A stretch of DNA of 64,000 bases from Spraguea lophii (lineage: Eukaryota > Microsporidia > Spragueidae): contig LDOQ01000303.1 in NCBI GenBank assembly GCA_001887945.1, forward strand, positions 1 to 64,000, given 5' to 3'. Positions 1 through 61,240 of the stretch are shown here, piece after piece (the first letter of the stretch is position 1; every line of letters starts with the position of its first letter). Under the pieces are notes generated by a model. It was not told where the DNA came from, ran no database searches, and worked only from the letters and a program-made list of their open reading frames with translations. The translations under genes were made by a program, and so were the position numbers.

Positions 1-119
1 GCATATCTGTAGTGAAACCAGTTAGTACAAGTTTAATGTCGCTCGAGGAACCGAAGGTCACAGACCATGGTAGGCCGCAACCGGCCAGGAAGCTTTGATA
101 AATAAAAGTTTCATTCGTA
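1..119 (+). repeat. SINE-like repeat, copy 1 (3' end only)
   Basis: The window opens inside a copy of the repeat that is fuller at 60877-61240. Over about 120 bases the two differ at only about four positions. The stretch is much GC-richer than its surroundings, contains a GGCCG-CAAC-CGGCC hairpin, and ends in an AATAAAAGTTTCATT tail followed by an A-run. The left part lies outside the window. The near identity to copy 3 suggests recent movement. What is seen is the repeat; the SINE interpretation is inferred from copies 2 and 4, which carry tRNA-like heads. Confidence 0.75.
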
Positions 120-1054
120 AAAAAAAAATCCTAAAATAATATTTTAAATAATAAAGTAATTTTTATAATATATTTTGATCCAACTTCGTTTTAGCCCTTT
201 TTTTAATATTAAAAGTTTTTGTTCAGTCTTGTTATTGTTGAGTATGAAATTTTAAAATTTATATTAATTAATAATAGATTTATTATATTTCTATTGGTTA
301 TTCCATCTTATATTATGTATTTAGGTATTTGATAATTTGTTTTAAATAAGAAATTTCATTAATTATAAATTTTATGTATTCTACATCAAATATATTCGTT
401 TATATTATTAATATGCAATAAAGTTTACTTTATAATGAATATAATTTTGTTTTTCATATCCCAATCAATACTACGTATAATTTGTTATTTTTTCATTTTT
501 GATTACAACACAATTATTTATTCAAATACATTTTTATTAATTTCTTATACAAATATTTTGCTTTTGTTTCCATTTTCATTCTTCCAATTATACAATATTC
601 CTTATATTATATTTTCTTTTATTACGCTTTTGTCGTATGGTTATTATATTATTATACAATTATTTCTTTATTAGTATTTGTATATTCTCTTCAAAATATA
701 TTTGGTTAACCCTAAACTACTTAATAATCAACATGTATAATTTATATTTTTATACTAAAATCTCATAATAATACATAGTAAATAATTATATTTAATAACT
801 ATGTGTGTTTTTGATTCATAAAGTTTTTTTCGTATTTTTTATATCTTACAATATTTTTATTATCATTCTTTCTAAATATCTTTTAAAAATTAAAGAATTA
901 ACTTTTTCCGATTATTATCTTAAAACAGTTTTATCACAGTTTTTAGTGTTCACCACGAATTTATTTTTATTGGTCATGACTCTCATTATTTTTAATAATT
1001 TTTATAGCGTCTTTAAATTAATTTCTGTATAAAAAAAGATCTATTCGGTATTCC
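120..1054. other. AT-rich spacer, no supported gene
   Basis: Two open frames of about 75-80 codons (435-674 and 805-1032) translate to runs of Phe, Ile, Leu and Tyr without any motif. This is what random AT-rich DNA gives. I see no gene here. Confidence 0.6.
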
Positions 1055-1524
1055 TGACTCCGCTTGGTACAGTGGACATGGAGTGGTAACCAAATCCCAA
1101 ACGTGGTGTGATCGAATCCCTCGTCAAAAATAATTTTCGAAAAAAAAATGATAGTAATAAAAGATAGACTAGATGTTGTTAATGTGAGAATTCAATAATA
1201 TAGCATTAGTTGTGCTTTATATAATAGCTCCTCCATAAATTAATATAATGCTTAACTGGTGTAATTGCAATCCCTGTATTGATTTGTGATTCAGTCAATA
1301 TTATACAATAAAGAGTTTAGGAATTCCTTAAAAATATGGAAGGCAACGACGTGCACCAGACGCAAAATCCTAACACTCTGGAGCATAAGGTAAATGAGAT
1401 TAATGCATATCTGTAGCGAAACCAATCAATACAAGTTTAGACGTGCTTCAGGAGCCAAAGGGCTCAGACCATGATAGGCGTAACCGGTCAGAGAACTTAT
1501 AATAAATAAAAGTTTTATTAGGTT
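1055..1524 (+). repeat. SINE-like repeat, copy 2, with tRNA-like head
   Basis: The copy starts with a tRNA-like head at about 1055-1130. An A-box-like TTGGTACAGTGG lies at 1064-1075 and a B-box-like GTGATCGAATCC at 1108-1119, spaced about as in tRNA genes. An A-rich linker follows. From about 1173 a body aligns along its length with 60877-61240; shared blocks include TGCAATCC..TGTATTGATTTGTGA, CACCAGACGCAAAATCCT and CTGGAGCATAAGGTAA. It ends with AATAAATAAAAGTTTTATT. The head does not fold into a convincing full tRNA, so this is not a tRNA gene. A head with Pol III-type boxes plus a repeated body plus an A-rich tail fits a tRNA-derived SINE. Confidence 0.65.
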
Positions 1525-2323
1525 AAAAAAAATAATCTTTTAACTATTCGTTTTATATTATTTGATATTATTTTATTAAGTAAATAATAAAATTCCCTTA
1601 TTACATTGTGATTACCAAAAATTATATTTGTTCTGTTATAAAATTTATGTAAACAAGTTTTCTTGATCTATTAATTTTTCATTTTCAAGATGTAATGCCA
1701 ATAAAATGTTAGGATTTAATTCATTGAGAAGATATTCAGAAATATCATTTGAATATATGACGAGTAAATTGGAATACATTATTAATTTTTTATAAATTTT
1801 TATTTATGAATAACACTGTAACAAAAAAGAAATCATTAATTACAATCGGAACATAAGTTCTTCTGTTTATTGAAAAATATATCTCTTATAATTTGCAACG
1901 TCTTTCATAATTCTAATGAGAATGGGATTTTATAGTAAAAACTTTTCTTTTATGATTTCTACTCTGTAACCTTCGACAACTTATAAGAAATTATTAGATA
2001 CCCTTTTTCATTTAAACAGTTTATAGGAATGTAACGAGGTTGTTTAATTGTATAAAATGTATGGGAATTTCTATATAATAAACAAATAAAAAATAAAGAC
2101 ATTCAATACTAATAAATAAAAAATTAAATAAATATTTGAGAATAGTTAATCTAACTTAATAAATGGTAATATAATATACTTTTTATCTTTATACGTATTT
2201 GTAATTTACATATAAATATTAAATATTTGTACTTTATCATCAAATAAATGTTTAATGTCTATTTTTTTATGTTTTCTATTAGAAGAGAAGAAAATCTTTC
2301 ACCCAAATATTATTAAATACCAT
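1525..2323. other. AT-rich spacer
   Basis: No open frame or repeat that I can support is present between SINE copy 2 and the helicase relic. Confidence 0.5.
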
Positions 2324-3910
2324 CTAATTTAATAAATCCTTGAGCATAGATGGATCCAATACCATTCCTTTTCTATTTACAAATAAAAATAACTGTTTAT
2401 AAAATTTATCCTTGAAATTATTACTATCTCCTATAATTATCAATCCTAATTTACATCTGGTTATTGCTACATTAATTCTTCTAATTTCATTTAAAGATCC
2501 TATTTCTGATAAACAATTACTTCTTACTAATGTTACTACTATTATATCTTTTTCTTGCCCTTGAAAGGAATCTACAGTTGATATTTTTATTTCTTCAAAA
2601 ATATTAGAACTGTAATCCTTTAGAATTTCCTTCAAAAGTTTATTCTGTCCAGAATATGGTGTAATAATTCCTAAAGATAATTTATTCTCTCCAATATGAT
2701 TAATTTCTATACATTTAAGAATATCTTTTATAATATTTCCTTCTTCTAAATTAATATATGAGCAGTTTATTTCAGATTCAAAAAAATTTCTATCTTGCAT
2801 ACCAATTAGAAGAAGAGGAGGTGTATAAAAATTAAATTTTTTTTGCTTACTTTTTATTTTATTCTGATAAAAAAATTATTAGAAAATTCTATTAGTAACT
2901 CATTCATTCTGTATTGTTCATTTAACATTATTTCGAGTATTTTCATTTTTTTATAATCCAGACTTTTTTCTTCTAGTGGTCCTAATTGGTAAGGATCTCC
3001 AACAAGAATAAAATTGTGAGCCAATATCGTACTAAGAATAATATCCAATTCAGATGTTTAATAACATCAATCGATTATAATATAATCATATTTGTCAAGG
3101 CTAAATATAGTACTAAAGATTAATTTTATATCTTTTTGAAGTTCATTTATTTTTTTATTTTTCCTTCTTTTTTTATCTCTCGATAAAGAATAAATTGATT
3201 CTACACCTTTTTATATTCTTTTTTATTTTTACTTTTTTTATTTCTTTTGTTAAAAAATCTAAATTCTCTTCAACGATATTTTCTAAATTATAAAATGTTT
3301 CCCCTTTGTTTGAAAACTTAATCTAAAAAAATTTGTTTTTTTATAATAATCAGAATTAATAAATCGTTTAAGAATATTATCGAATGCAATATTACTTGGT
3401 GCACATACAATTATTTTTTTCTCATTAATGAATACTTTTATTATCATTTCGACAACAGTTTTAGTTTTTCCTGTTCCAGGTGGACCCATAATTTTATATG
3501 ATAAACAATTATCCAAATAATCAACTGTTGATTGTTGAGAACTATTTAAAACATTACCATAATTAGAAATAGGAACAGTTTCTACTTCTATTTCTTTTGT
3601 ATTATTATCTAAATAATTTATAATTTTTCCATGAAAAACAATTTTATCTTTTATACATTTTCTATCCTTTCATTAACCTGCACTTAAAATAATTTTATAT
3701 TCATACTTTTTTATCTAACAATTTATAACTTTTTGCAGTATATTTATCTTTATTATCTAATATCATACATTCAACACCATTTATTTATCATAACCCTCTC
3801 TTCAATTCTTAATCTATCTCTACAATTAAATATAATAATTTTTTTATTTATTCCTAAAATATGAGTTCTGTTGCTGTTTCTTCTTCTTCAAAGTTCGTTT
3901 TAAAAATATT
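2324..3910 (-). pseudogene. Decayed superfamily-1 helicase (Hcs1/IGHMBP2/Upf1 type)
   Basis: Three minus-strand open segments hold helicase motifs in the right order. Segment 3283-3671 (open upstream of its first possible start) has a Q-motif-like stretch and Walker A GPPGTGKT, then CAPSNIAFDN (motif Ia). Segment 2854-3048 has VGDPYQLGP (motif III) and NEQYRMN (motif IV region). Segment 2324-2800 has TVDSFQGQEKDIIV (motif V) and NVAITRCKLG (motif VI). Motif II should lie near 3050-3110 and is damaged. Weak N-terminal remnants reach about 3910. Stops and frameshifts separate the segments, so no full helicase can be made. The order and the GPPGTGKT/QGQEKDI signatures fit the DNA2/NAM7-like family that acts on RNA or DNA in translation, decay or replication. 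The exact subfamily is uncertain; Hcs1/IGHMBP2 looks closest. Confidence 0.8.
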
Positions 3911-10246: not shown

Positions 10247-10695
10247 AAGCCTGTTTGGTTCAATGGTCGTGGAGTGGTGTGGTAATCACCACAGGCCTAA
10301 TAGTTAGAATTTCACATCTATAGGAATTTTTAAATAAAAAATAAAAGTAAAATACAAAAAAAATGAATTGATGAGGGTGAGCATTCGATAACGTATATTG
10401 GTTATGTCTTGTACACGTATAACCATTATATTAAGCTAGTTATTTAATAATATGATTATAATATCTATATTGATTAATGATTTAGTCGTTATGCTAAAAA
10501 GGAGATTGGAATTTCATCAGGAATAAATGGTAAATGATAACATGTACCATATGAAAATTTATAATGTCCTGATGTAAAAATTAAGATGGGAATAATACAA
10601 ATATCTAACAAGATTAGTCAATATGAGTTATCTGTATTTTTAAAAAGTTGCAATTTCAAATTACGGTGGACACAATTATCCTGACTTGATGATAA
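10247..10695 (+). repeat. SINE-like repeat, copy 4 (diverged), with tRNA-like head
   Basis: A tRNA-like head at 10249-10321 has the A-box-like TTTGGTTCAATGG followed by GTGGAGTGG, as in copy 2, but its B box is eroded. After an A-rich linker, a body from about 10368 follows copy 3 block by block. GATGAGGGTGAGCATTCGAT matches GTGGGTGAGGTTTCGAT. TATTGATTAATGATTTAGTC matches TATTGATTTGTGACTCGGTC. ATTAAGATGGGAATAAT and GGTGGACACAATTATCCTGA match the tail section. GC content has decayed towards the local AT background. It is an older copy than 1-3. Confidence 0.55.
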
Positions 10696-12901: not shown

Positions 12902-13777
12902 ATGTTATATTTTAAAAATTATATTTTGATAAAAATAATATTTTTTTTATTAATACTGAATAGAATAAAGACACTTAGAAATCCATTAGATTATTTTATA
13001 GATGTACCTTTACAAGTTTTTTTAAGTTTAAAACCAAATTATAAAATTGCATCTGAAATGTTTGATTTCGATGTACCTTTTATAATTGTAGAACAAGATA
13101 ATAAAGAAATAGAAAAAATAGAAAAATATATTATTGATCAAAATGGAAATAAAAAAAATTTACGCAATTCTCCAATAAATTATGAACAGAAAAATAATAA
13201 AGATAATAAAGGTAATTATATAATAGGCATAAACACAGATGAAATATTTGATATATCAAATATAATAAGATATGGTAATGAATATAAAATAAAAATAGGT
13301 AGATTTTATATTTGTTCTCAAAAAGCGGATAAAAATGATATTATTTCAGTTGATAAAAAATGTTATTGGAAAATACATCCTGTGGTTGGTGGTTATTTAT
13401 TAAAAAGAAATAATCAGTGTATTACTATATTAGAAAATAATTTTACTATTAATATGGAACAGTGTCATGGTAATATTAACCAAATATTTTATTTTAAAAG
13501 ATTAAATAGATGTGATTTAGAATCAAAGAGTGAAAGTAAAGAAAGTACAGATAATGATATACTTCCAAATAAATTAATAACAAAAGAAAAGGGTAAGAAA
13601 TCATTAGAAAAGAAAAAAGAAGCATCAAAAAGAAAAGATCCTTTTAAAAAATTTATAAAGAAAAACAACGGTATAAAAAAATCGTGGGGATTTTTTAACT
13701 TTTTTAAGAAATTGAATAATTTGGTTAAATTTCCTTTTCGACCACGATTTAATATACTGGATTTATTTTGTTATTAA
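12902..13777 (+). CDS. Ricin-B-lectin-like secreted protein 1
   Basis: A 291-residue protein with an N-terminal hydrophobic signal (about residues 5-20, after a Lys) and an early mature start near TLRNPLD. The recognisable part is at about residues 150-200: CYWKIHPVVGGYL, then NQCITI, then INMEQC, then QIFYFKR. This is one W-I...C-(hydrophobic)...L/M-x-x-C...Q-x-F subdomain as in a ricin-B beta-trefoil. A Lys-rich tail (about 205-260) and an aromatic C-terminus follow. Such RBL-like proteins are secreted or wall-associated in microsporidia, and some are linked to host adhesion. The family call is by pattern only; the overall similarity is faint. First gene of the cluster that runs to 25.5 kb. 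Confidence 0.7.
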   Translation: MLYFKNYILIKIIFFLLILNRIKTLRNPLDYFIDVPLQVFLSLKPNYKIASEMFDFDVPFIIVEQDNKEIEKIEKYIIDQNGNKKNLRNSPINYEQKNNKDNKGNYIIGINTDEIFDISNIIRYGNEYKIKIGRFYICSQKADKNDIISVDKKCYWKIHPVVGGYLLKRNNQCITILENNFTINMEQCHGNINQIFYFKRLNRCDLESKSESKESTDNDILPNKLITKEKGKKSLEKKKEASKRKDPFKKFIKKNNGIKKSWGFFNFFKKLNNLVKFPFRPRFNILDLFCY

Positions 13778-14253
13778 ATATTATTATAATATAGAAGATT
13801 AATCGATGGTAACAGTTATAATAATCAATATGATGATATAAAATATTAAATAATATTAATTGGTATATAGCAATAATAATAAACATTTGATTATTTATAT
13901 ATAGCAATACTAAACATTTAACTGTTATACATTAACAATTGTTCATTTTTAAAAAATACAAATTATTTTTATAAATATTGAGTTTTTAATATTATAAGAT
14001 TATCACATTATAAAACAATTGATTAAAGTATTTATTGATTTATCTCAAACACTCGATTAATGATTAATCAATCCTATTCCATTATCATTTATACTTTGAA
14101 ACGTAATGTTTTATAATAAAAACGGATATAGAACTATAAAAAAGTATCATGAAACAGTACAAAAAAATAGAAATGAAAATAGTTAATACAATGAATTTAC
14201 CCTATGAAAATAATATATACAACAGAGCGTATTATAATATATCTAAAGTTATA

Positions 14254-14994
14254 ATGAGATTTATTCTGTTAATATATTTTGTACATGCAAAATCTATCTT
14301 AACCATGCTGAATACTAATGATCCTGTCGTGTTATCAATGGGATTATTTCCTATGGATAAAGTAGTAGTAGATAGATATAATTATAATATTAAAGTGTTA
14401 GAAGATAAGAAAATAGACCATGACAAATATCAAGTTGTAGCTAATCTTATATCCAAAGGAAATAAATATATGATAAAATATAACGATAGATATTTTTCTG
14501 TCACTGATGTATTTGAAAAGAATACTAATCGTAAAAAACATCATAAATTAATAAAAACTACAGAAGATAAAAATAAAGCATCGTTATTTAAAATACACAA
14601 TTTAAGTGATGGTATTGTTATATCATGGAAAAAAAATAAAAATGATAAAGAAGATAAAATGACATCCAAAAAAGTAGATAAGAAGATTAGAACGAACACT
14701 AAATCATTTTTCACAAATACTAATTCACTCTGCATCACAAGAAGTCATAAACAGTTAATTCTTTGTAAATGTAATATCAATGATCTTATAGCATTTGAAC
14801 ATCAGAAATTTACTGTATTTACTATGTCTAATATTTCTTTGATAAAAAATACTAATATGAACCTATTAAAAATGTTTGAAGATAATTTAAATGATCCTAT
14901 GCTTATAAAATCTTTTGCGCAAATAAGAGATTTAGAAGAAAAATATGATACTAGTAAAGATAAAAAATATTATAATAAATGTGTAATAGCATAA
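14254..14994 (+). CDS. Ricin-B-lectin-like secreted protein 2
   Basis: The frame is open from an ATG at 14149, but the ATG at 14254 directly opens a good signal peptide (MRFILLIYFVHAKS), so I place the start there (246 residues). The mature part has FKIHNLSDGIVISWKKN, a Lys/Asp-rich loop, then LCITRSHKQLILCKC and FEHQKFTVF. This matches the I-x...C-hydrophobic...L-x-x-C...Q-x-F layout of a ricin-B subdomain. A helical C-terminus follows (LKMFEDNLNDP onward). It has the same strand and size class as its upstream neighbour. The 35-residue N-terminal extension would hide the signal peptide, so I consider it non-coding. It could also be a generic secreted effector with no carbohydrate binding. 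Confidence 0.65.
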   Translation: MRFILLIYFVHAKSILTMLNTNDPVVLSMGLFPMDKVVVDRYNYNIKVLEDKKIDHDKYQVVANLISKGNKYMIKYNDRYFSVTDVFEKNTNRKKHHKLIKTTEDKNKASLFKIHNLSDGIVISWKKNKNDKEDKMTSKKVDKKIRTNTKSFFTNTNSLCITRSHKQLILCKCNINDLIAFEHQKFTVFTMSNISLIKNTNMNLLKMFEDNLNDPMLIKSFAQIRDLEEKYDTSKDKKYYNKCVIA

Positions 14995-15297
14995 AATATA
15001 GAATAATAAAAACATTGAAGAATTGTATACAAATATATATAATATAATATTATAAAATCCCTATAAGAGATAATAATATTATTAGAATATAATAATTATA
15101 CATATACAGTTAATTTACTCAATATGGAAATTCATAAAACTATAATTAAATTTTAATTATTAAATAATACGTTAAAATATTTAATAATAATATATTTTAT
15201 TTTTTTATATTACAAATAATTAACTTTAATAAAAATATTATAAAAATAATAAAACTTTTAAATAATTAAAATAACTTATAATATATTTCTTTATATC

Positions 15298-15384
15298 AAA
15301 ATTTATCACTCAATTATTATCTATAAATAATTTATCATTCGATTATTATCTATAAATAATTTATTAATTAATTACTATCTATAG
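15298..15384. repeat. Short tandem repeat, about 30 bp, three units
   Basis: Three units of a TTATC(A)CTCAATTATTATCTATAAATAAT-like sequence in direct order. The last overlaps the stop codon of RBL-like gene 3, so slippage here could have changed its C-terminus. Confidence 0.6.
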
Positions 15385-16099
15385 ATGCTTGTTTATAATA
15401 ATTTTCTTCTTTCATCTGCTCTTCTTTTATTTTCAAACTATCATTTGAAATAAATCTTTCATCAACATTTTCTATTGTAACAACTTTATTTATTTTATTA
15501 TTACCACAATCTTCCATTACTAATCTGTTAGATTTTATAGTGAAACATTTTCCATCTATTTCTATTGTATACAAACCATTATCATATGTATATTTGCTAT
15601 TATCATGTGATTTATTATCGTCATTATCATTTGAATTATCATGTAAATTCTTATCGTTCTTATCGTTATTATCATTTGAATTATTATTATCATTCAAATT
15701 ATCATTATCACCATGTAACTTATTACTATTATCATGTAACTTATTATTATTATTATCATTTAAATTCCTATTTACTTTTACTAATTTTAATGTTGTTCTT
15801 CTTTCTTCATTATCACACACATATAATTTATATTTTTCATCATAACATATTTTTCTCCCACAATACCATATTTTTATAAAATTTTCATCTATATTTTGTA
15901 TATATGGATTATAACAGTATAAATTAGTCATTTGACTTATACGTGCTAATGAATATATTGAGAATGTATCATCTAGTTTATTTAGAGTAAGATACATATT
16001 AGGATAATCTATAAATTTTATACGTGAACAATATATTGTGGTGGAAGTAAGAAGAAAGAATGGAAATGAAATACACAGTAGAATGAAAGAATAAAACAT
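15368..16099 (-). CDS. Ricin-B-lectin-like secreted protein 3
   Basis: A minus-strand gene of 243 residues opening with a strong signal peptide (MFYSFILLCISFPFFLLTST). The mature part has IKIWYCGRKICYD and, after an 80-residue Asn/Asp/His repeat block (NDNNNNKLHDNSNK type, about residues 113-168), a second unit: DNGLYTIEIDGKCFTI then LVMEDC. The block encodes near-tandem GATAATAAT-type DNA and separates the two lectin-like halves. That arrangement is typical of replication-slippage inserts. It is the only member of the cluster on the minus strand. The LVMEDC block closely resembles LVMERC of member 6, which is the best internal evidence that these genes are paralogues. Confidence 0.7.
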   Translation of the reverse strand: MFYSFILLCISFPFFLLTSTTIYCSRIKFIDYPNMYLTLNKLDDTFSIYSLARISQMTNLYCYNPYIQNIDENFIKIWYCGRKICYDEKYKLYVCDNEERRTTLKLVKVNRNLNDNNNNKLHDNSNKLHGDNDNLNDNNNSNDNNDKNDKNLHDNSNDNDDNKSHDNSKYTYDNGLYTIEIDGKCFTIKSNRLVMEDCGNNKINKVVTIENVDERFISNDSLKIKEEQMKEENYYKQASIDSN

Positions 16100-16426
16100 A
16101 TTGATGTAGTAAAAGTATAAAATATAGTATTATAATATAATGTTTCATAGTAGCTAAAACAAATGTAATACATCAAAGCATATTATAATAGAATATTTAA
16201 ATACTAAGAAAATATTTAAAACATTCAGTATTCACTTAAAATTATTAATACCAATCTATTAACAATCATCCATAATAATAATTTAAGATGATACATCCAT
16301 TTAAATTATTAATATTAAACCATTTAATCATTCTGTTTCCACTTAAAATCATTGATAATCACTAATCGAAACAAATGTTTTAAATATTTTCCTATTATTT
16401 AAATATTCTATTACACTTATTCTATT

Positions 16427-16945
16427 ATGTTACACTTATTCATACTATCTATTTTTTCCACAGAAATAATAATATCACCATCCAGCAATCCAGATCTCCT
16501 ATTAAACGACAATCTCCAATTTTCCAATATAAATTCAAAATCCAATAAATCCACAACACACGAATACTCTATAGCTTTTGAAAATGGCATGTATTATACG
16601 ATTATAAACACATCCCAAGGATATATTGTATCAGCCGATAATAAATTAGCAATATCAGAAGATAATACAAAAAAATATAATTGGAATATAGTACCATTAA
16701 GCAATGGTAGATACATAATACAATCACAAGATAATAAATGTTGGAAACATAATACAAAGAAGTGCAGAGATAATAAAGAAGAGAAAGTAGAAAGTGATAT
16801 CGATACAACAGTACAATTGGAAGATTGTCCACAAGAAATGGAAGAGATACCATTTAATATGATGTTTAACCTACTGATATTTCCATCTAAACAAGAAAAA
16901 GAGAAATGCAAAGAATTATTAGAAAACAATAAAGCAGATCTATAA
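16427..16945 (+). CDS. Ricin-B-lectin-like secreted protein 4 (short)
   Basis: The smallest member, 172 residues, with a weak hydrophobic start (MLHLFILSIFSTEIII). It shows the cleanest single ricin-B-like unit of the cluster. YYTIINTSQGYIVSADNKL (residues 56-74) is followed by YNWNIVPLSNGRYII (84-98), NKCWKHNTKKC (103-113) and, after a charged loop, TVQLEDC. A Lys/Glu-rich C-terminus follows. W86 and C105 correspond to W156 and C173 in member 1. It is divergently placed from gene 3, sharing an AT-rich 330-base region that probably carries both promoters. Confidence 0.7.
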   Translation: MLHLFILSIFSTEIIISPSSNPDLLLNDNLQFSNINSKSNKSTTHEYSIAFENGMYYTIINTSQGYIVSADNKLAISEDNTKKYNWNIVPLSNGRYIIQSQDNKCWKHNTKKCRDNKEEKVESDIDTTVQLEDCPQEMEEIPFNMMFNLLIFPSKQEKEKCKELLENNKADL

Positions 16946-17290
16946 TTATGAGATAATGATATAATGATGAGATAATAATATAGTGATGGTATAATAATAT
17001 AATGAGGATATAATGATGATATAAAAATGTTAGAAAGATATAAGAGTGTTATAAGAACAATGATAAGATATAGTAAAATAAAAGTAAAACAATATTAAAT
17101 TAGAAGAATCTATAATAGTAATATAGTAAAATAAAAGTAAAATAATATTAAATTAGAAATATAAATAACCTAGAATAATATATAATCATATATAACAATA
17201 AATAAATATATATTAATAAATAAATATTCTCTTATAAAATAAATATATATTTCTATATAAAATAAATAAATATACTCTCTTATAACCCTT
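16946..17290. repeat. Low-complexity spacer with a direct duplication
   Basis: TGATATAATGATGAGATAATA-type microsatellite (16950-17035). It is followed by a duplicated 38-base unit (17068-17105 and 17121-17158; ATATAGTAAAATAAAAGTAA and onward) and repeated AAATAAATATA(T) tracts up to the NAD kinase start. Confidence 0.6.
17283..17290 (+). promoter_or_regulatory. CCC start-proximal signal before NAD kinase
   Basis: CCC at 17286-17288 lies two bases before the ATG. This position and sequence match the CCC motif known upstream of microsporidian start codons. Confidence 0.45.
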
Positions 17291-18796
17291 ATGTATTTTA
17301 TTATAACTTATTATTCTTTTAAATATGAAGAAATAAAAGAAATATTAAATATATTTAAAAATAAATATAATATCATAGAATATATATTAGATTATGAAGA
17401 ATATAAAAATATAGAATATACTAATATAAATATATTTAAATATAATAATAATTATAGTGTTATAAGTGATAATAATAGTGATAATGTTATAAGTGATAAT
17501 AAGAGTGGTAGTAATACTGTTATAAGTGATAATAATAAAGATGATAGTAACAATTATAACATTACTACCATTACTACTAACCATCACACGAACAACACAA
17601 ATCATATATCAAATAATAAGAATAATAAGAATATAAAGATAGAAGGAATAATAGTATTAGGTGGTGATGGTACTCTGTTAAAAACTATATCTTTATTAAA
17701 TATATACAATATACCAATATATCCTTTTAATTTGGGAAGAGTAGGTATGTTATGTAATCTAAGTATAAAAGATATAAATATTTTTATAAATTATAATCTT
17801 AAGATAGTTAATCTTATTTCTCTTTATAGTCATAGTGATAGATATGGTAATGATGATAATAATAGATATAAAGATGGTAACGATAATAATCATACTAACA
17901 ATCACATTACTAACAATAATCATATTAATGCTAATCTACCTATCCTAACCTCTAACAAAAATATAATTTATAATAATAATATACATTATAATAATAATAT
18001 TGTTAATAATTTTATAAATGAAGTATTATTTACTAATGAATATACAGGATATCTTAATAAATATAAAATAATAGTAGATGGTAGAATAATAGATATAATA
18101 TATTGTGATAGTATTATGGTATCTACATCATTAGGATCTACAGGATATAATAAAAGTACTAATGGGCCTATTATTATAGATTATAGTAATAATTATGATA
18201 ATGATAGATGTGATGATAATGGTAATAGAGATGATTGTGATAGTAATAATTATTTGAGTGATAGTAATATTACTAATAATAAAAATACCTATACCAATAA
18301 TCATATACACCAACCTATCCTAACCTCTAACAAAAATGATAATACTAATGATAACAATCATATTACAAATAAAAAGAATATAAATAATAGTTTAATATTA
18401 AATATTATAAATTCTAATAGAGTATCATATAAATTTATTCTTAGTATTTGTAGTATAATAGAGATAGAAATATTATCTAATAATAATAGAGATAATAGTA
18501 ATATAAGAGATAATAATATAGATGATGATAATAATGATATTAATAATAATATTAATAATAATACTAATACCTATATTAACAATCATATTAATGCTAACCA
18601 ACCTATTCTAACCTCTAACAAAAATATAAATATAAATATAAATGATAATAATAAAAGATGTATACCTGTATGTATAGTAGATGGTAATATAAGAATATAT
18701 TCTAATAAATACAAAATAATGTATAATAGAGTAACAGTAATAATAAGTAATCTACGAGATAATCTAAAAGATATTTATGATAAAATTAAATTATAA
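17291..18796 (+). CDS. NAD kinase with large Asn/Asp-rich inserts
   Basis: A 501-residue cytosolic ATP-NAD kinase (makes NADP from NAD). Conserved blocks in order are IIVLGGDGTLLKTI (120-133, the catalytic GGDGT), PIYPFNLGRVGMLCN (142-156, family P-I-N-G-x-G-F-L), FINEVLFTNEYTGYLNKYKI (241-260, NE motif), DSIMVSTSLGSTGYNKSTNGPII (273-295, family D-G-x-x-x-S-T-P-T-G-S-T-A-Y) and RVSYKFILSICSIIEIEIL (377-395). Family proteins need about 260-300 residues. The excess is four hydrophilic inserts at about 55-112, 180-235, 298-365 and 397-455, all between conserved blocks, so the fold can survive. Three inserts share the segment PILTSNKN (217-224, 342-349, 438-445) encoded by almost the same DNA. 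It sits within the RBL-like cluster. Confidence 0.9.
   Translation: MYFIITYYSFKYEEIKEILNIFKNKYNIIEYILDYEEYKNIEYTNINIFKYNNNYSVISDNNSDNVISDNKSGSNTVISDNNKDDSNNYNITTITTNHHTNNTNHISNNKNNKNIKIEGIIVLGGDGTLLKTISLLNIYNIPIYPFNLGRVGMLCNLSIKDINIFINYNLKIVNLISLYSHSDRYGNDDNNRYKDGNDNNHTNNHITNNNHINANLPILTSNKNIIYNNNIHYNNNIVNNFINEVLFTNEYTGYLNKYKIIVDGRIIDIIYCDSIMVSTSLGSTGYNKSTNGPIIIDYSNNYDNDRCDDNGNRDDCDSNNYLSDSNITNNKNTYTNNHIHQPILTSNKNDNTNDNNHITNKKNINNSLILNIINSNRVSYKFILSICSIIEIEILSNNNRDNSNIRDNNIDDDNNDINNNINNNTNTYINNHINANQPILTSNKNINININDNNKRCIPVCIVDGNIRIYSNKYKIMYNRVTVIISNLRDNLKDIYDKIKL
17916..18630 (+). repeat. Three dispersed copies of a 40-50 bp repeat inside the NAD kinase gene
   Basis: Copies at about 17917-17960, 18291-18336 and 18580-18624 share the pattern AACAATCATAT(TAATGCTA), then CCTATCCTAACCTCTAAC, then AAAAAT. 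All are in the same reading frame and each sits in a separate low-complexity insert. The unit is GC-richer than the surrounding GATAATAAT sequence. Confidence 0.8.
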
Positions 18797-18983
18797 TTTA
18801 TTATATTCTATTATAATATATGTTTTATATTTATAATACTATTATACTATGTTATAATTTATATTATACCATTATGATCACCTATAACCAGTTACAATCA
18901 TTTATCATCTATAATCACCTATAATCATTTGTAAAACATATTGTTTTATAATAATATTTATTAATGAATAATATTTATTTTAT

Positions 18984-20447
18984 ATGTTATACTCTAAGAA
19001 TAATAATTTATATTTTATAAAAATAATATTATATTTATATTATTTAATAGATAATAATTATTATAATATTGATATAAGAGATAATACTACATATGATATA
19101 AGAGATAATAGTTATAACTATAGATATAATGATACATATGATACTACTTATCATATTAATACTACTCACACTCATTATACTACTTATCATACCAATACTA
19201 ATACTACTCACATTCATTATACTAATTATATTGCTTCTATGTTCTTTGTTGGAGCGAAGGATGTTCTTATAAAATTCAGACCTTCTTATCCCAAAGATCT
19301 TGAATTAGGTATAAAAGATTTCAAGCTTGTTAAGAGTGCTGACGGTAATTTTTTATTGCGTAATATTGTAAAAACTAAGAAGGGTGAAGAGATGCTTTCT
19401 CAATCTGTATTTAAATACGGTGATAAATATGTATCTGTTGCTAGTAGTGGTGATGAATTAGTGTATTCTGAAGATCCGTATTATTGGAATATGGTTATGT
19501 TGGATAATAATGTATTTTATGTTGAGGAGGATAATGGCCATTGTTGGTATAGTGATGGGAAAAGTGTGGTCGTTGGAGTGTGTAATTCGCCAGGTGCAGG
19601 TATGGAGGGTAAATATTTGTTTTCGGCGGAATTTAGGCCGACGGGAGATAGTTTGTGTAAATGTAAAGTCGTAGTGGATGAATATGAGGATGCTATGAAT
19701 GTGTTGAGGAAGAGGAAAGGTAAACCGAAAAAAGATGAAGAGGAAAATGTAGGTGAAGAGGAATTGGATGAAAGTAAAAAAGAGGAAAAAAATAAAAAAG
19801 AATCGGATAAAAAGAGTGACGGTGAAAATGAATTAGATAAAGATACACCCCTTCCACCAATAGAATCTGCATTACCAGTACAACCGATACGCCAACAACC
19901 AATAATAGCTGCCCCGGTAATACAACCAGTCTATCAACAACCAGTAAATCAACAATATCGTCCTCCAGCAAATAATTATCCACCAGCTTATCCATTACAA
20001 CAACCACAACCACATTACCCACAACCCATAAATACTACACCATCAGAAGGATATGGTTTTAATTTATCAGATACCATTCCATCCTATAATAGTAAATCCG
20101 ATGAAAATAACGATAACAACCAATATAAAAAAGATACTGATCAACGTGGAAAAGATGATGATGATAAACACAAAGAAGAATTATATAAACCATCAAGACC
20201 ATCTAATTCAAGACCGCCATTAAGTAAAACATTACCAGCAGAAGAAAAAGAAAGAATAAATAAAGATGCAACAATAAAATCCAGTGTAAATGTAAGACCG
20301 TTAGGTTCAGGAGATAAATCTTCTAAAATAAATAAAGATAATGAACCTAATCCTAAAGTAAGCAATTTAAATGAAGGTATTTCTAATGAAGAGATATATA
20401 AAGAATTATCACAAGTACTTGAAGAAATAAAAAGTAGGAGAAAATAA
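18984..20447 (+). CDS. Ricin-B-lectin-like protein 5 with Lys/Glu and Pro/Gln-rich tail
   Basis: 487 residues if read from 18984. The first 25 residues contain a signal-like hydrophobic run (FIKIILYLYYL). A 60-residue Asp/Thr/His/Tyr low-complexity block follows. The alternative ATG at 19239 (MFFVGAKDVLIKF) would remove both and leave no signal peptide. The lectin-like part covers about residues 93-230: FRPSYPKDLELG, FKYGDKYVSVAS, YYWNMVMLDNNVFYVEEDNGHCW, VVVGVC, KYLFSAEF, CKCKVVV. It has higher GC and better codon diversity than its neighbours. A Lys/Glu-rich linker (about 240-290) follows. Then comes a proline/glutamine stretch (about 290-370; PIRQQP, VYQQPVNQQYRPP, LQQPQPHYPQP) and a charged C-terminus. 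The Pro/Gln tail recalls extracellular wall or polar-tube components, but this is inference. Confidence 0.75.
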   Translation: MLYSKNNNLYFIKIILYLYYLIDNNYYNIDIRDNTTYDIRDNSYNYRYNDTYDTTYHINTTHTHYTTYHTNTNTTHIHYTNYIASMFFVGAKDVLIKFRPSYPKDLELGIKDFKLVKSADGNFLLRNIVKTKKGEEMLSQSVFKYGDKYVSVASSGDELVYSEDPYYWNMVMLDNNVFYVEEDNGHCWYSDGKSVVVGVCNSPGAGMEGKYLFSAEFRPTGDSLCKCKVVVDEYEDAMNVLRKRKGKPKKDEEENVGEEELDESKKEEKNKKESDKKSDGENELDKDTPLPPIESALPVQPIRQQPIIAAPVIQPVYQQPVNQQYRPPANNYPPAYPLQQPQPHYPQPINTTPSEGYGFNLSDTIPSYNSKSDENNDNNQYKKDTDQRGKDDDDKHKEELYKPSRPSNSRPPLSKTLPAEEKERINKDATIKSSVNVRPLGSGDKSSKINKDNEPNPKVSNLNEGISNEEIYKELSQVLEEIKSRRK

Positions 20448-20669
20448 AATTTATATTTATAACATTCTGTTATATTTTATTATATTTTGTTATTCTGTTA
20501 TATTTTATTTTATATCATTTTATTATATTATCATTCTTATAACATCTTATTATATTTTATCGTCATTGTAACACACTGTTACAAGTTATTCTTCTTATAA
20601 CACTTATAATACAATATGGTATCCTATTATATATTATTATTCTTATAACATTGTATAACATCCTATTAC
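20448..20669. repeat. TATATTTTATTATA/CTTATAACA quasi-repeat spacer
   Basis: Repeated TTATATTTTATTATATT and ATTCTTATAACA units fill the gap between the two lectin-like genes. Confidence 0.5.
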
Positions 20670-20735
20670 ATGTTATACTACATTATATGTTTTATATTTC
20701 TATTATATAAATATATTATATTATTATATTTTACT

Positions 20736-22604: not shown

Positions 22605-22889
22605 TAAAATATATTTTTATTTAAATGTATAATAGATATTATATTTTATAAAATTCATATATAATAATAATTATATAGATATTATATAATAATGATAACA
22701 ATAGAATTTATATACTTAATAATTATATATTTAATAATTACATATGAATTTTATAATCTTTATTATTTTTTTATAAATATGATATATTTACAATTCTTGT
22801 TATATCTTTTTTTATTTTACATTATTATAATATTTTTAGGTGAATTATAATTAAATATAAAATATCTTTTATTCGTTATAACAGATAAT
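22605..22889. other. AT-rich spacer
   Basis: No gene seen. Confidence 0.4.
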
Positions 22890-23115
22890 ACAAACTTACT
22901 TGGTTAATGAATATGAATGATAAATAGATCATAAGCGGGATGAACCCTTTACACAAAAAAAGAAATATAAAAAAGTATTCGATCTGAGAGAGAGTAAAAT
23001 ATGTTGTTAAAGGATTTATTATTATAACTTGACTATGTTTTATGTGATGGGCCTATTATTAAAAATTAAAGAAATGATATTAAAAAATTCTATACATTCA
23101 TTATTTAAATTTTTT
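22890..23115 (+). repeat. SINE-like repeat, possible copy 6 (old, partial)
   Basis: ACTTGGTTAATG at 22900 could be a decayed A box and GCGGGATGAACCC a decayed B box. An A-rich linker follows. Next comes GTTGTTAAAGG and TGTTTTATGTGATGGGCCTATTA, then AAATTAAAGAAATGAT. These line up with GTTGTTTAGTGG, TGCCTTGTATGACGGCCCCGCTA and GATTAAAGTAGTG of copy 3. The alignment fades after about 23115. A tentative call. Confidence 0.3.
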
Positions 23116-24000
23116 CATAAAATATTATTTTAATGATATTTTTATTATCTAATTTTTAAATATTTTTGATAATTACAATATCTTATTGTATCATTCTAAT
23201 TACTTTATTTTTATATTAAATATTTTTTTGTTTTAACATATATTTTATATCCAATCCGTCAGAAATAGATTTATATAAAAACCTGCATCTAAATCTTTTA
23301 AATATTGATAAATTCGATTGTTAAACCTTCTGAAACAATTATACTACATATTTTACACAAATTTAGTAATTTTATTATTCATATGTATATCTTACTTATT
23401 TAATTTTTTATCTTTTACAGATATATTTTTTTACTTATTTAATTCCTTCTTTATATTTTTAATAATAAAAATATTCATATAATTGATGTTGTGCTTAAAA
23501 TAATAATAATACTTATAATTATAATAAACTTTATAATAAAGTTATAATGGTAATAATAATACTGATAATAATAAATATTATAATTAATTTTATTTGGTTA
23601 TAAAATATATTTATTCAAAAAAGATATATTTTCATAATACATACAAATATTAAATTTCCTACACTGATCTTCAAACTTAAATATCATTTATTTCTATAAT
23701 TATTTTATAATGATTATAGAAATAAATGATATTATAAAAGATTATTACGATTATTTATAAAACATTTTAATATGCATTTTTATAATTATTTTATAATATT
23801 AATAGCTCTTTAAAACATTTTATTCACTATATATTATCTAAAATCAAAACAATCCAAATATAATATCATTTTTAAAATCCAATCTTAATAATTTATGATA
23901 ACTAATTAGTTTATCAGTTGATAAGATAAGATAAATATAATATTTTTTTCATTCAAATAATTAAATATTCTATTATAGTTATACATAAACTTGTTATAAT

Positions 24001-24095
24001 AATAATCAAATAATAATAATACAATAATAATAATACAATAATAATCAAATAATACAATAATAATCAAATAATACAATAATAATCAAATAATAATA
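24001..24095. repeat. Microsatellite of AATAATCAAATAATACA units
   Basis: A run of near-identical AATAATACAATAATAATCAAAT units. It is part of a 1.5-kb AT-rich spacer (23120-24465) in which I see no gene. Confidence 0.7.
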
Positions 24096-24672
24096 ATATC
24101 AGAATTATTAGAATTAAAATATAATAATAAATATTTTAAATATCAAAACAATCTTTTATTTTCACTTGTGAATTATAAAGAAAATCAAAAGTTTAAATTA
24201 TTTTTTATCAAATATTTATTATAATCTATATTATAACCAATAACTATAATACATATATTATTTATATAATAATAACATATATTATAATTATAATATATTA
24301 AAACATTTACTTACCAATGATATTTCTTATAGCTATTGTATAACCAATAACTGTATTATATAATAAATTATTATTTTATTATATTTTATCATTGGTAATT
24401 ATATGTTTTATTTCAATCATAATAGATATATTTGTAATATAAATATGTTATGAATACAGTAAAGTATGAAACAAATAGTAATGAGAAGTATTTTAAAATA
24501 TATTAACTGTAATATAAAATATTCATATTATAAAGATAGTAACAATAATAGTAATAATAATAGTAATAATAATAATAATAATTATAGTATATTTAATGAT
24601 AATAAGAATAAGAATAATAGTATATTTAATGATAAAAATATATTTACTAACACATTTAAATATATGAAATAT

Positions 24673-46149: not shown

Positions 46150-49100
46150 CTCTTATGAACATCCATCTCCTTCTTATTTACATTCTCTATGAATAAAGGG
46201 TTCTTCAACTGCTTTCGATTTTTCACAGAAACGTTATAGGTAACCTTTATTTCAGGACCACGACATAATGAATTTCTTAGTTACAGAAATGCGAGACAGA
46301 CTTCCGAATAATCAATATGAAAATCAAAAATACAGATGAGTAACACCGATACAAATAGATATTAACTAACATCCAGGTTCAAAACGTTAATATTTGGTCG
46401 AGAAAGACAAAGGAACAAATCAGAAACAATGAATGGGATAAACAAATTACAATGAACATATTAAAAATTTTAATTAAAAATAAAGCATCTTAGTAAATTG
46501 AAAAATACACAGAACCATTCAAAGCCATAGATGTCTATTAACTTCTCATTACAAGAAAAGCGGATGATAAATTAGACTCAACATCAATCTATTAGAATTA
46601 TTGAGTGCGTGAAAAACAAGAACCAATGATTAATGAATCAGCAATATGTCGAAAATGGAGCAATAATATGAAAAAGGAAATATTTGGAAATAAAATTTAG
46701 AGAAAGACTAAGTAACCAAACTAAACTTGAATAAAAAGGATTTCAAAAAATGCCAGGGAAGATATAAAAAAATATATTAATGAAATAGAAGAAGAAATAT
46801 TATAGTAATCAGTTAAAAGACAAGTTATCAATAAATTAAAAACTTTAAATAAAAAAAATTTATAAAAAATAATTCCCCACAAAAATAAGAAGATGACGTA
46901 AGGAACACAAAAATTATATTGTCATTATCATAAATTTAAAAATCATGACGCTGAATTGTAAAACAATAAAAGAGGCGGAGAAAAATAAACAAAATTTTCA
47001 CATGAAGAATGAAAATTTTAAGGACAAACTACTTTTTAGAAAGGATTATCAAAATGCTGAGTATTTATTTGATACAGGAGTCGAAAAATCTGTCATTTCG
47101 TCTGATTTTTTAAAACCATTTCTCTTTAAAACCAAACTTATTCCGGAAATAAAAACAGAACCAGCAATAAAAAAATATAGGTAAATAAGTCGCTCCTGGG
47201 ACAATGCATATTTGAAAAAATACCACACGCTATAAACAAACAAGATTTTCTTATAGTTTCAAATTTAACCTGTCATGTAATCTTAAATACAGATTTTTTT
47301 TCAAACCGTGTTAAAATTAATTATGATTCTTAAATAATCTCTATCAATAGACGAAAGGTTCTTCCAAAGAATTAAAAGAAAATACCGTATGCAACATCTA
47401 GAGAAAAACTAGAAAATCTAATACGAAAATATTCAACGAATACGAAATGGGAACTTATAGAATTTAAAACATGAAACACGTCTAAAGTCCAATCCAGATG
47501 TTAACATAAAACGTAATCTGTTCCTTACAACTTAAGTCACGAGGGTAAACATTAAATAATATTCTTATAGAAGAAAACATTATTAGAAATATACCTTATA
47601 AATATTGTTCATCATCTTTCTTAATTCCAAAGAAGACAAGATCATTACAACTAGTTGTAAACTTTTCTAAACTTAACGAGTATACAACAAAAAAGTTGAC
47701 CGGTGTCCAAATATCACCGACTGCCTATCAGATCTAAAAAAACTCTGTTATCTTTACAACTTAAATATAAACATGGCATCATCAAATAGTTATGCATCCA
47801 GACTCCATACAATACACATCTTCCACGATTTTAAATAACAATACAAGTATTAAAAAATACCTTTCGGTTTCACAAACTCACTATATATCTTCCAACGTGT
47901 CATGCGCGATGTTCCCTGTGATTTCACCTTTGCGAAACTTTAATTAGACGATTGACTGATACAAAGTAAGACTTTAGAGAACATACAAAACACGTTCCTA
48001 TTGTCTGTAAAAAAACCGGCAAGCGAGAATGATTTTAAATATCAAAAAATGCGTTTTTTTAAAGAAGAAATAGAGTACTTTGGCCATATAATTAATAAAA
48101 AGTGTTACTCGTTAAACCTTACGAAAATAAACAAACTTCAAAGGTTGCAATTCTCTGAAACAAAGAAAAAACTCCAGATATTAATTAGATCTATAAATCG
48201 GTTTAGGCCATTTACCAGAAACATTGCAACAAAGTCTTATTTATCACAAATAGATTAAAATACAACACATCTTATCGACGGGGAAAATGATGGGATGCAT
48301 TCCAAAGAATTTGGAATGATATTAAGGAATCTCCAACTCTTGTTTATTCAGATTTCAAGGGGAAATTATAATAGAAACAGATGCATTTAATGTACCACTG
48401 GAATTGTATTATACCAAAGGCATGGAATAATTACATTATTTAGTTACAAACTGAACAAGATAGGAAAAATATACATAATCGTAGAAAAAGAATTTTACGC
48501 TATATATAAGACCATCATAAAATTTCACAGTATACTATTCAATACGAAGATTAAATTAAGAATTAATAATAAAACCCACAGCAACAATAAGAGAACCAGC
48601 ATCACGGATCCACGGATGGAAAAAACATTTGTTAAAATATTCAACATTTATAGAAATTATACCGTGAAACAAAAATGTCGTTGCAGATATATAACTTCAT
48701 TTGACAAAGTTAAGAAAAACAGATAATGGATTAAAAGAAAAAAAACAATTGATTGGCACAAAGAACATGGACGTTCAGGAATTTTAAGAACCGGAGAACC
48801 CTAAACACGTCTGGGAATTATGTTTCATATTATCAAATTCAACAAATATTATCTTCCTGTCAAGATTACCAAAGGAACACGTCGGTAAGATAAAATAAGG
48901 AAAATTAATGGAAAAATAATCTCGAACAAGTCATTTGAAATCATATCGCCTGATATAATATGTTCTTTAATAATTATGAATACAAGGATCTTAATGATAA
49001 TGTGAAATTCTTTTGATTTCGGTATCAGAAATCATTTTACTAGGCTCATCGGAAGCAATTGAATGTTTTAAACTTTTTTTAATAAATATATTACATCAAA

Positions 49101-55635: not shown

Positions 55636-55639
55636 TATA

Positions 55640-57660: not shown

Positions 57661-57959
57661 AAAATAAAAATCTGTCTAGGGAAGAGCATCATACGGTTTC
57701 CTTTTCCAGACTTAACCATAAGGGTGACAGGACATGTTGGTTTAATTACCATTAAACTAAATAATCTTAACTTTATGTGATATTATTTTAAAATACCCTT
57801 TTATTGTTATTCTGAAAATTGCTAAAAATAGAACATATTACAGAGATGGTACTCCTGCAATAAACGCATTGGTATCAATTAAAGGAAATTCTACAGTTTA
57901 AAAAAAATTTCAGCTAGGAGATAGTCGATCTTTTCCGATCAACTGAAATATTTCAACAA

Positions 57960-58640: not shown

Positions 58641-59940
58641 GATATACCTATGATATATCGGACAGAAAAAAGCAATGTTGAAACTGTTATATGTTCTGAA
58701 ATAGCTTAAAATTAAATCAACGAGTTAAAGGTTATTTTATTATGTTTTATTATTTTTTATGAGACGTGTGGTATAATCAAACTCCTGAAAAGATTTATAT
58801 GATTATTATGGATGGTTTTGAAGGTAATTGATATTTGTAAACAAAAAGAACATCATTAATGAGTAAATTTTATTAGAAAATATTTTTTTATTAAACCGGG
58901 TAAGAAAGTGTTTAAATTCATATCAAAAAATTAATTTTTTTATTTTATTAAAATGGATGGGGAATTATTAAATAATAAACAGAAAACGTTATAAGGTTAT
59001 ATTGTTTTTTTATAATTTGGTTACTTTATCTAACACCTGATTCTTTATTAAAAAATACTTTTGTTTAATCTTTGTATTTATTCTATCTTTATTTCAGTTT
59101 CGATATGTTTTCTTATATTATTCGAGTTTTCTTATATTATTCGCTGTTTTTTTTGATTTTATAGAAAACAATACTGTAACTTTAAATTTTATTTTAATTG
59201 TATTTTTTTAATAATAATTAACTATTTCATATTTTGGAGAAATCGCAATTTTTGTATTTTTGTATTTCAACCATGGATGGAGAAAAATGAGATTGTAAAT
59301 TTTCAGAAGGTTTATTGTAAACATGATAAATATTAATTTTTCCCTGAAAATATTTCCAAAAATTTAATATTAAATTATTGGGAAAGTTTATTCCAAAAAT
59401 TTTAATAGTTAAAAAAATGTGTAAAAAATATAATATTCAAAAGATTGTAGATATTTGATAATTAAAAATTTATTGAAACAATATTCACTTATTGGGAAAA
59501 TAAGAATGAAGTAAATAATAGGGGTTAACAATATTTTTGATATTTATACATATGAAGAAATATTTGACCATTTTAATAGAAACCCAAAACGATTTTCAGA
59601 TAATGATATTTCGGAAATTTCAAATGTTATTTCTATGAGAAACCATATCAAAACAATTTTTGAAAAATCCGAAAAAATATCTAGTTATTTTATTAATTAT
59701 TCTCAGTTAATATAAAAATTTTCCTAAAAAGATTCCATACACTTAGAATTAAAAAAAGGAAATAAAAATTTTGTCACGTATTACTATTTTCAAAACACAT
59801 ATTTAAAATTGCGTATTTCTTAATAACAAAAATGTTTTTTGTTAATTTATTTTTTTATATGATTTTATTATTATTCTTCCTTTTTTATTTTTTAATAATT
59901 TATGGACAAAAAAAATATTTTTTAATAAACGGTATAAATT
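58641..59940. other. Gene desert
   Basis: Nothing supportable beyond T- and A-runs. Confidence 0.35.
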
Positions 59941-60825
59941 AAGATTATCCGAAGATATATATATTTGGTGAAAATGTATTGTTATGGGTAAGCATAGTAA
60001 TAAAATAACTATGATAGGTTTTACGACTAAAAAATACTTTTTTACTTATAAAATTATTAAAAGAGAGACGGATCTTTCCGAAATTACAACAATGAGATAC
60101 GCAAAAAACACGGAAAATAAAAGTATAATAAGGAAAACTATAAATGGTTGAAGAAAATGTTCATAGAGCTTTTTACAAATAAAAAAGTTTTTAAAAAAAT
60201 ATAATGACTTCTGCACCAAAAGTCCAAGAAAAGGTATTAGAAAATAATACAAAAAGTTTGGCATAAAAACTATAAAACGATTTTAAAAGGAGATTTGAAT
60301 AAAATCTTTGATACTTATCAAAAACCCCTTTTTATCTTCACAACATAGAAAGCAAACTTAATATTACAAAAAAGTAACACTGTGAAAGGTTAACTTCTCA
60401 GACAATGTCGTTTTCACAAATGAAATATTATCCAATATTTATAACGAAATAAGACGATCGAAAATAGGACAGGTGGTGCTAAATATTATAAACGAATAGA
60501 GCAGACAAAACATTCTAATTTTACGAAACTATTGGTTTGGGTGTTTCTCGTATAAAGATGTGAGGATTTATATTTTTAAATAAAACCATGTGTACACACA
60601 TAATGTCATCATATTATATATAATGTCCAGGTAAGTTTTGATAAATTTGGGTTTAAAAAGTTTTAAAATACAGAAATGATGATCAAAAACATAAAAGTAA
60701 ACCGCACCAAATTATTTTCAAGGAAAAAACATAAATGTTATTGAATGGCGACCTAATAACTTGATTTAAATCAAATAGAAAATATCTGTGAATTTATTAA
60801 GAAAAATACGGAGTAAGTATTTTGA
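59940..60825 (+). pseudogene. Canonical Tc1-type transposase relic f
   Basis: This relic is of the animal Tc1 kind, unlike a-e. Blocks: KVNFSDNVVFTNEILSNIYNE (about 60385-60445; first Asp block, Asp to Asn), NYWFGCFSYKDVRIYIF (about 60525-60575; family MVWGCFSxxGVGxLxFI), YRNDDQKHKSKPHQIIFKEK (about 60670-60725; family QDNDPKHTS, second Asp codon 60681), IEWRPNN and LDLNQIENICEFIKKNTE (about 60740-60812; family WPxxSPDLNPIENLWxxLK, Glu codon 60778). Separated by shifts. A SINE-like copy starts about 50 bases downstream. Confidence 0.8.
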
Positions 60826-60876
60826 GATATAACTTTTTAATAAAAAATAATAATAATAAACATAGAAGAGAAGAAA

Positions 60877-61240
60877 AAGGTTGTTTAGTGGGTGAGGTTT
60901 CGATAGTGCAGCATAGCTGTGCCTTGTATGACGGCCCCGCTACTAGATTAAAGTAGTGTTTAGCTGATATAGTTGCAATCCTTGTATTGATTTGTGACTC
61001 GGTCAATACTATGCAACGAAAGAGGCTGGGAATTCCTTAAGAGCTGGAAGTGGGGTGGCGACGCGCACCAGACGCAAAATCCTTATACTCTGGAGCATAA
61101 GGTAAGATGAGATTAATGCATATCTGTAGCGAAACCAGTTAGTACAAGTTTAATTTCGCTCGAGGAACCGAAGGTCACAGACCATGGTAGGCCGCAACCG
61201 GCCAGGGAGCTTTGATAAATAAAAGTTTCATTAGTAAAAA
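60877..61240 (+). repeat. SINE-like repeat, copy 3 (young, headless)
   Basis: This is the best-preserved body of the family: 364 bases, strikingly GC-richer than its flanks. It runs from GGTTGTTTAGTGGGTGAGG to AATAAAAGTTTCATTAG and an A-run. It lacks the tRNA-like head seen in copies 2 and 4, as expected for 5' truncation. The last 120 bases are about 97% identical to copy 1. Confidence 0.75.

Follow-up and report, generated by a model that had tools for sequence, protein, structure and literature searches.

A tRNA-derived SINE with a LINE-like 3' end in the microsporidian Spraguea lophii, located in part behind tRNA gene terminators

The stretch of DNA analysed here (the window) covers positions 1 to 64,000 of the 168-kb contig LDOQ01000303.1 of the microsporidian Spraguea lophii, whose assembly (GCA_001887945.1) comprises 5,273,041 bases in 73 contigs. 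The window contains several copies of a non-coding repeat of ~486 bp, a short interspersed nuclear element (SINE) of the tRNA type with A and B boxes and an oligo(A) tail. The chitin synthase encoded in the assembly shares 98% identity across 99% of its length with that of S. lophii 42_110, the next match by score being Dictyocoela muelleri at 42%. A search for microsporidian small-subunit rRNA gave no match in the assembly, although the same model does find matches in 9 of 14 control genomes. The GC content of the window is 22.8%; the passage on genome composition in the published S. lophii genome paper gives 23.4% (PMC3749934).

To locate the copies, the window was scanned with an nhmmer profile of 44 distinct copies, each near full length (400 or more of the 486 positions; window copy 2 was included via locus L001), and with a second profile built from 15 old copies only. 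The 44-copy profile gave five significant matches, all on the plus strand, while its best match in the reversed window had an E-value of 1.5. The copies are as follows.

1 to 121, plus strand: copy 1, a young SINE of which the contig start leaves only the 3' quarter (reference positions 366–486; nhmmer E 1.7e-39; 99% identity to a young reference copy).
1060 to 1520, plus strand: copy 2, a near-full-length old SINE with an A/B-box head, from profile position 2 (nhmmer E 3.5e-114, the copy being itself one of the 44 profile members).
10250 to 10627, plus strand: copy 3, a very old SINE from the head onward (profile 1–392; nhmmer E 4.3e-27 and 8.4e-30 with the two profiles).
22942 to 23071, plus strand: copy 4, a possible very old SINE remnant, not significant (E 0.14 with the 44-copy profile).
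30909 to 31104, plus strand: copy 5, the 3' half of an old SINE (profile 267–476; nhmmer E 9e-9 and 2.3e-11 with the two profiles).
60831 to 61237, plus strand: copy 6, a young 5'-truncated SINE with an oligo(A) tail (profile 75–481; nhmmer E 2.8e-141; 96% identity to a young reference copy).

A first-pass annotation of the window had proposed about six copies, and its coordinates agree well with the profile matches. Five of the copies are significant, whereas the stretch at 22890–23115 is not (E 0.05–0.14; the old-copies-only profile matches 22954–23071 at E 0.054). Heads had been assigned to copies 2 and 4; we detected one in copy 2 and, instead of copy 4, in copy 3, in which no tail was recognised (profile match 1–392). 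The pair of ~97% identity is not copies 1 and 3, as had been stated, but copies 1 and 6 (96.6%, 1–119 against 61118–61236). Copy 2 is ~21% diverged from the young consensus, and neither it nor copy 6 has a clear target-site duplication. The surrounding region, 426–3024, is duplicated on contig C8 (98093–100704, locus L002) at 92% identity with the SINE included, the two SINE paralogues being 88% identical; this may be an old duplication or a pair of divergent haplotypes.

The anatomy of the element is apparent in six of the eight copies first read (L003–L008), which start with CCCGCCTGGCCCAGTGG, or nearly so, and run through GGTTCGAATCCC into an A/T-rich linker, a body of ~300 nt, a tail of the form ..GGCCGCAACCGGCCAGGAAGC..ATAAATAAAAGTTTCATTCGT and oligo(A). 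The head contains an A box, TGGCCCAGTGG, and a B box, GGTTCGAATCC, which fit the RNA polymerase III (Pol III) consensus. Against a set of 22 distinct tRNA sequences taken from 30 loci, the highest score of the head was 13, for tRNA-Arg(TCG), followed by 11 for tRNA-Trp(CCA), while the maximum among 1,100 shuffles was 4. Thus, the head is tRNA-related. Heads and bodies occur together in near-full-length copies, which lie on many contigs. A search for the origin of the body in known RNAs gave nothing relevant in Rfam. Exact matches numbered 0 both for one tail pattern searched in viral contigs and for one body pattern searched in prokaryote contigs, which says nothing on eukaryotes.

Across the genome, pattern counts allowing at most 2 mismatches, which miss older copies, gave at least 266 tails (136 forward, 130 reverse), 160 B boxes (61 and 99) and 111 A boxes (41 and 70). 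Reversed-pattern controls gave 1, 0 and 0 matches for tail, B box and A box. The SINE matches are dispersed over many contigs and lie on both strands. The window's uniform plus orientation had been regarded as odd for dispersed retroposition. It holds for five of five significant copies (chance ~0.06, two-sided), but it does not extend to the genome, where tails split 136 to 130, and the supposed oddity is therefore not supported. The B-box counts of 61 to 99 do deviate from even (p 0.003), and the A boxes are split 41 to 70. Among the matches listed, neighbouring tails mostly face opposite ways: 1 of the 11 pairs no more than 5 kb apart is co-oriented, and at up to 20 kb 8 of 30 are; for neighbouring B boxes, again among the matches listed, these counts are 4 of 12 and 9 of 27 (p 0.12, not significant). 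Opposite-facing SINE neighbours lie on contigs C1, C3, C45 and others, and locus L021 resembles, by eye, an inverted duplication including its flanks.

The 44 copies fall into two age classes, 29 at 0.6–3.9% from the young consensus and 15 at 11–28%. This distribution is biased to young copies because 30 of the loci were obtained through exact B-box matches. As had been noted for the window, older copies have drifted towards AT: GC content is 42–47% in the 29 copies at most 3.9% away and 28–43% in the 15 copies at least 11% away. Relative to the young consensus, the 15 old copies changed from G/C to A/T at 28.1% of sites and in the reverse direction at 8.2%. These rates predict an equilibrium GC content of 22.5%, an approximate value because the young consensus is a mere stand-in for the ancestor, against 22.8% in the window; thus, the extreme AT-richness is consistent with mutation bias. 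CpG-type mutation was rejected as the source of the drift, since C-to-T rates (with G-to-A) were 0.168 at CA, 0.233 at CC, 0.266 at CG and 0.293 at CT, with no CpG excess. The graded copies serve as a clock of this decay.

To look for signs of retroposition, we scored flanking repeats at 48 copies that have a 3' end, at least 25 nt before and at least 40 nt after, with duplicates dropped and a score cut-off of 10. Repeats reached this score in 26 of 48 copies compared with 23 of 938 mismatched flank pairs (Fisher p 8e-25), and in 25 of 32 copies of at least 94% identity. In these 26 copies the target-site duplications directly abut the SINE ends. The 5'-truncated copies with such duplications are L065, which starts at position 324, and L019, which starts at position 36. 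Young insertions interrupt frames of at least 100 aa in 1 of 28 cases, compared with 149 of 600 random window positions (p 0.006), as expected if gene insertions are removed. These results bear on whether the copies are instead solo long terminal repeats (LTRs), or a fixed piece of a larger LTR element or DNA transposon, with a tRNA-like sequence by chance. Ty3/gypsy-like reverse transcriptase (RT) genes do exist in the genome, with a degenerate one in the window (by eye). However, dispersed copies with their own abutting duplications are not part of one fixed larger element; additionally, copies are 5'-truncated, the flanks read hold no larger unit and the tail matches the 3' untranslated region (UTR) of a long interspersed nuclear element (LINE; below). 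We therefore reject this explanation, which we regard as extremely improbable.

A search of the genome with RVT_1 found 9 places. Judged by eye, four of them resemble Ty3/gypsy elements, two fall within one long telomerase-RT-like gene, two are LINE-like (L012 and L017) and one (L015) is too degenerate to classify. The degenerate Ty3/gypsy-like RT of the window lies at 47827–48093 on the plus strand; by eye, better-preserved ones are on contigs C73 and C44, and one with stops is on C48 (L009, L010, L011). The clearest LINE frame, P0001, is open for 479 aa and runs off the contig end. It has weak Pfam matches to an endonuclease and to the start of an RT (E 0.002 each, below Pfam cut-offs), its homologues are LINE-type at 23–39% identity, and its RT part matches LINE-1 ORF2 structures at E 1e-9. 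Homologue searches aimed at the LINE clade gave general homologues only. Further LINE pieces, recognised by eye, include an RT C-terminus on C61 and a Cys/His knuckle on C61, C11 and C21. At ~3050–3067 of locus L087 (~3550–3567 of C21), a telomere-like run of three TTAGG units lies downstream of LINE-like sequence near the contig start.

The first-pass annotation had suggested looking for a tail shared with a LINE, and such a tail was found. The SINE matches the LINE 3' UTR over 55 nt at 84% identity, with an E-value of 2e-9 for this genome. Searching the genome with the LINE 3' end gave 41 matches, 16 at LINE-type places and 25 at SINE copies, the latter covering a 49–55-nt segment only. At 11 loci, LINE 3' ends mostly read ..AGAACCAAAGGTCCCAGACCATGGTGGGCCGCAACCGGCCAGGAG.. 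(~100 nt) ..ATAAATAAAATTTTCTTATGTTTAAAAAA, and the SINE counterpart is ..GGAACCGAAGGTCACAGACCATGGTAGGCCGCAACCGGCCAGGAAGC..ATAAATAAAAGTTTCATTCGTAAAAAA. A terminal stretch like that of the SINE, TAAATAAAA-TTTC followed by oligo(A), is present by eye in 9 of the 11 aligned LINE 3' ends and absent in 2. Of this portion of the LINE 3' UTR, the SINE thus has the two ends but not the ~100-nt middle, and the 3' end of the SINE probably derives from the LINE 3' UTR of the same genome. One SINE tail and one LINE piece are predicted to form the same hairpins, ACCR-GGUC-GACC-UGGU and GGCCG-CAAC-CGGCC, with a fold z of -2.76 for the SINE tail; in LINE copy L093, most of the second hairpin is missing.

From the anatomy, dispersal, duplications, truncations, shared tail and LINE pieces as read from the sequence, we are highly confident that the repeats are a tRNA-derived SINE of ~486 bp whose 3' end comes from a LINE 3' UTR and which is most likely mobilised in trans by the LINE via that end. 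The earlier view of a tRNA-headed SINE is supported by the co-occurrence of heads and bodies, the dispersal, the copies' own target-site duplications and the tail shared with the LINE. For the route, we infer Pol III transcription, recognition of the tail by the LINE enzyme and activity today. Most likely, Pol III would start at the internal promoter of the SINE, yielding an RNA that ends in the LINE-derived two-hairpin motif and AATAAA/oligo(A). The LINE endonuclease-reverse transcriptase would recognise this end in trans, and target-primed reverse transcription would copy the RNA into the nicked site, leaving target-site duplications of 10–20 bp and some 5' truncations. Inserted copies would then decay under strong GC-to-AT mutation pressure.

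Several results weigh against this model. Although the A and B boxes match the consensus, neither ARAGORN nor Rfam recognises the head as a tRNA, and shuffled sequences fold as well as it does (z -0.43), leaving the parent tRNA uncertain. The young copies read carry an internal TTTT right behind the head, and the first T-run is T4 in 3 of 30 tRNA genes of this genome, so early termination of the SINE transcript is possible. Of the 32 young copies, 7, including window copy 6, lack a duplication scoring 10, as do 15 of the 16 older ones. The catalytic core of the LINE RT was not found beside the LINE pieces, where contigs end inside the LINE, so that no complete LINE partner was seen. The fold of the LINE piece is no better than shuffles (z -0.94), and no compensatory changes in the hairpins were seen among the copies read by eye. 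Lastly, the tails are 84% identical rather than ~100%. This identity, together with the lack of visible covariation and the oligo(A) that ends both elements, would also fit a tRNA SINE moved by a relaxed, poly(A)-recognising LINE, with the 55-nt tail a functionless chance capture. We consider this unlikely, though not far-fetched, as the shared part lies at the 3' end of both elements and, beyond the internal gap of ~100 nt, the extreme termini match again, a layout described for stringent-type SINE/LINE pairs (PMC3747384).

Some copies of this probably LINE-mobilised SINE lie directly behind tRNA genes. We analysed 150 nt downstream of 57 tRNA matches (63 of 485 candidates were scored), drawn from 30 loci, 14 further loci and 13 downstream pieces. 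Seven of the 57 have a SINE in this interval, all on the strand of the tRNA and none opposite.

On the tRNA's strand: SINEs at L049 (Lys), L054 (Asn), L062 (Ala), L077 (Leu), L112 (Ile), L118 and L126.

Each starts 1–7 nt after a terminator-like T-run. By profile alignment, the five headed copies start 1–4 nt past it (a second T-run in L126, whose tRNA match is the weakest of the 57, at 41 bits), while L112 and L118 are strongly 5'-truncated, missing more than 250 nt of the 5' end, and become recognisable 6–7 nt past it. On the upstream side, for which 44 tRNA genes have sufficient sequence, a SINE lies no further than 150 nt away at 2 of them, in each case on the opposite strand. In control pieces of 150 nt, 18 of 720 matched a SINE, 12 of them on the plus strand, giving Poisson p-values of 6e-5 for the seven same-strand cases and 7e-4 for either strand. 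By copy density, junctions within 30 nt have p ~1e-10 or less. At L062, ATATTTTT is repeated behind the SINE tail, pointing to a duplication of the terminator during insertion; at the other six, such a duplication is not clear or would lie outside the sequence analysed.

SINE starts thus lie behind tRNA terminators far above chance, which suggests either targeting of tRNA 3' flanks or survival in them. We would give an even chance to the first, that the LINE-dependent SINE, at least in the past, integrated preferentially just behind tRNA Pol III terminators in the orientation of the tRNA. Such an insertion would leave the tRNA gene intact because the T-run stays upstream of the SINE. The second, to which we would give slightly less than an even chance, holds that these copies are survivors, persisting where deletion would hurt the tRNA gene or where the spacer was trimmed to the terminator. 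The finding that all seven are diverged (75–92% identity to the young reference over the stretch aligned) favours survival, as does the lack of a tRNA gene at the 30 mostly young exact-B-box loci (L018–L047), though fewer than one was expected. In contrast, all seven share the orientation of the tRNA (two-sided p 0.016), whereas trimming predicts mixed orientation, and the starts 1–7 nt past the T-run, including those of the two copies lacking more than 250 nt, also speak against survival. T-runs as a general SINE target were rejected: against a background of 2.8%, none of the 32 young copies has its start 3 nt or less from a stretch of 5 T or more. This and the divergence of all seven keep survival plausible. 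LINE 3' ends beside tRNA genes gave marginal matches only (best E 6e-4), and most SINE copies lie away from tRNA genes.

The eel elements UnaSINE1 and UnaL2 are a SINE/LINE pair of the stringent type. As described in part of one report (PMC3747384), that pair resembles the present one in its tRNA head, its LINE-3'-UTR-derived end with a stem-loop, here a predicted one, and trans-mobilisation by the shared tail, which here we propose from sequence comparison; it differs in that the host here is a microsporidian and the tail is 84% identical to LINE copies, misses ~100 nt of the LINE 3' UTR and ends in oligo(A). The sections of PMC5063351 on fungal tRNA SINEs describe MgSINE (472 bp, ~100 copies), Foxy (~160 copies) and AfuSINE2-1a, whose 3' end resembles a Tad-clade LINE. 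By description rather than by sequence, these are alike in size, copy number and tRNA head, and AfuSINE2-1a also in its LINE-like 3' end; here, unlike there, some copies lie at tRNA terminators. Insertion 3' of tRNA genes is described for Dictyostelium TRE3, 40–150 bp downstream in the same orientation and with an endonuclease-RT-zinc-finger ORF2, and for Skipper-2, 8–23 bp downstream in D. discoideum (passages of PMC5911963 and PMC5006619). Those elements are autonomous, whereas the present one is a SINE; it lies 1–7 nt past a T-run in 7 of the 57 tRNA cases, the majority of its copies being elsewhere.

Among microsporidia, the repeat table of Nosema bombycis lists 28,669 bp of SINE (0.18%), likewise SINE-annotated sequence in a microsporidian, as a total only, with no structure, partner or family in that passage (PMC3614468). 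A passage on A. algerae reports four LINE families (PMC4202319). The word "SINE" occurs 0 times in the main text of a 2025 study of forty microsporidian genomes (PMC12558613) and, by whole-word count, 0 times in that of the S. lophii genome paper, passages of which report non-LTR retrotransposon transcripts in spores and, in another sentence, name five such transcripts LTR elements (PMC3749934). In the open-licence literature, mostly judged from listings, we recognised no microsporidian SINE beyond the N. bombycis total. A SINE behind tRNA terminators may be new, as we found no earlier case in the open-licence literature on insertion downstream of tRNA genes.

Elsewhere in the window, 12902–25515 holds a run of open reading frames, mostly on the plus strand, with hydrophobic N-termini and, by eye, a common motif of the form KC..(T/S)....L.M..C. 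The two tested had no Pfam match; possibly these are the lectin-like family that the S. lophii paper (PMC3749934) mentions in one of its section titles. In the assembly, the starts of contigs C56, C3, C15 and C25 interrupt SINE copies close to reference position 366 (for the last two, as judged from tail positions), and C11, C61, C72 and, by spacing, C63 start inside the LINE. These are probably repeat-induced assembly breaks.

Microsporidia are a textbook case of genome reduction. Nonetheless, a SINE is present in many near-identical copies in this small genome, together with a recognisable LINE partner. If the preferential integration behind tRNA terminators is true, the tRNA 3' flank would be a safe haven in a compact genome for another lineage in addition to the dictyostelids, with their TRE3 and Skipper-2. 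If the SINE was indeed targeted there, the tRNA-terminator niche would independently solve a difficulty of retroelements in dense genomes, that of landing without killing the host.

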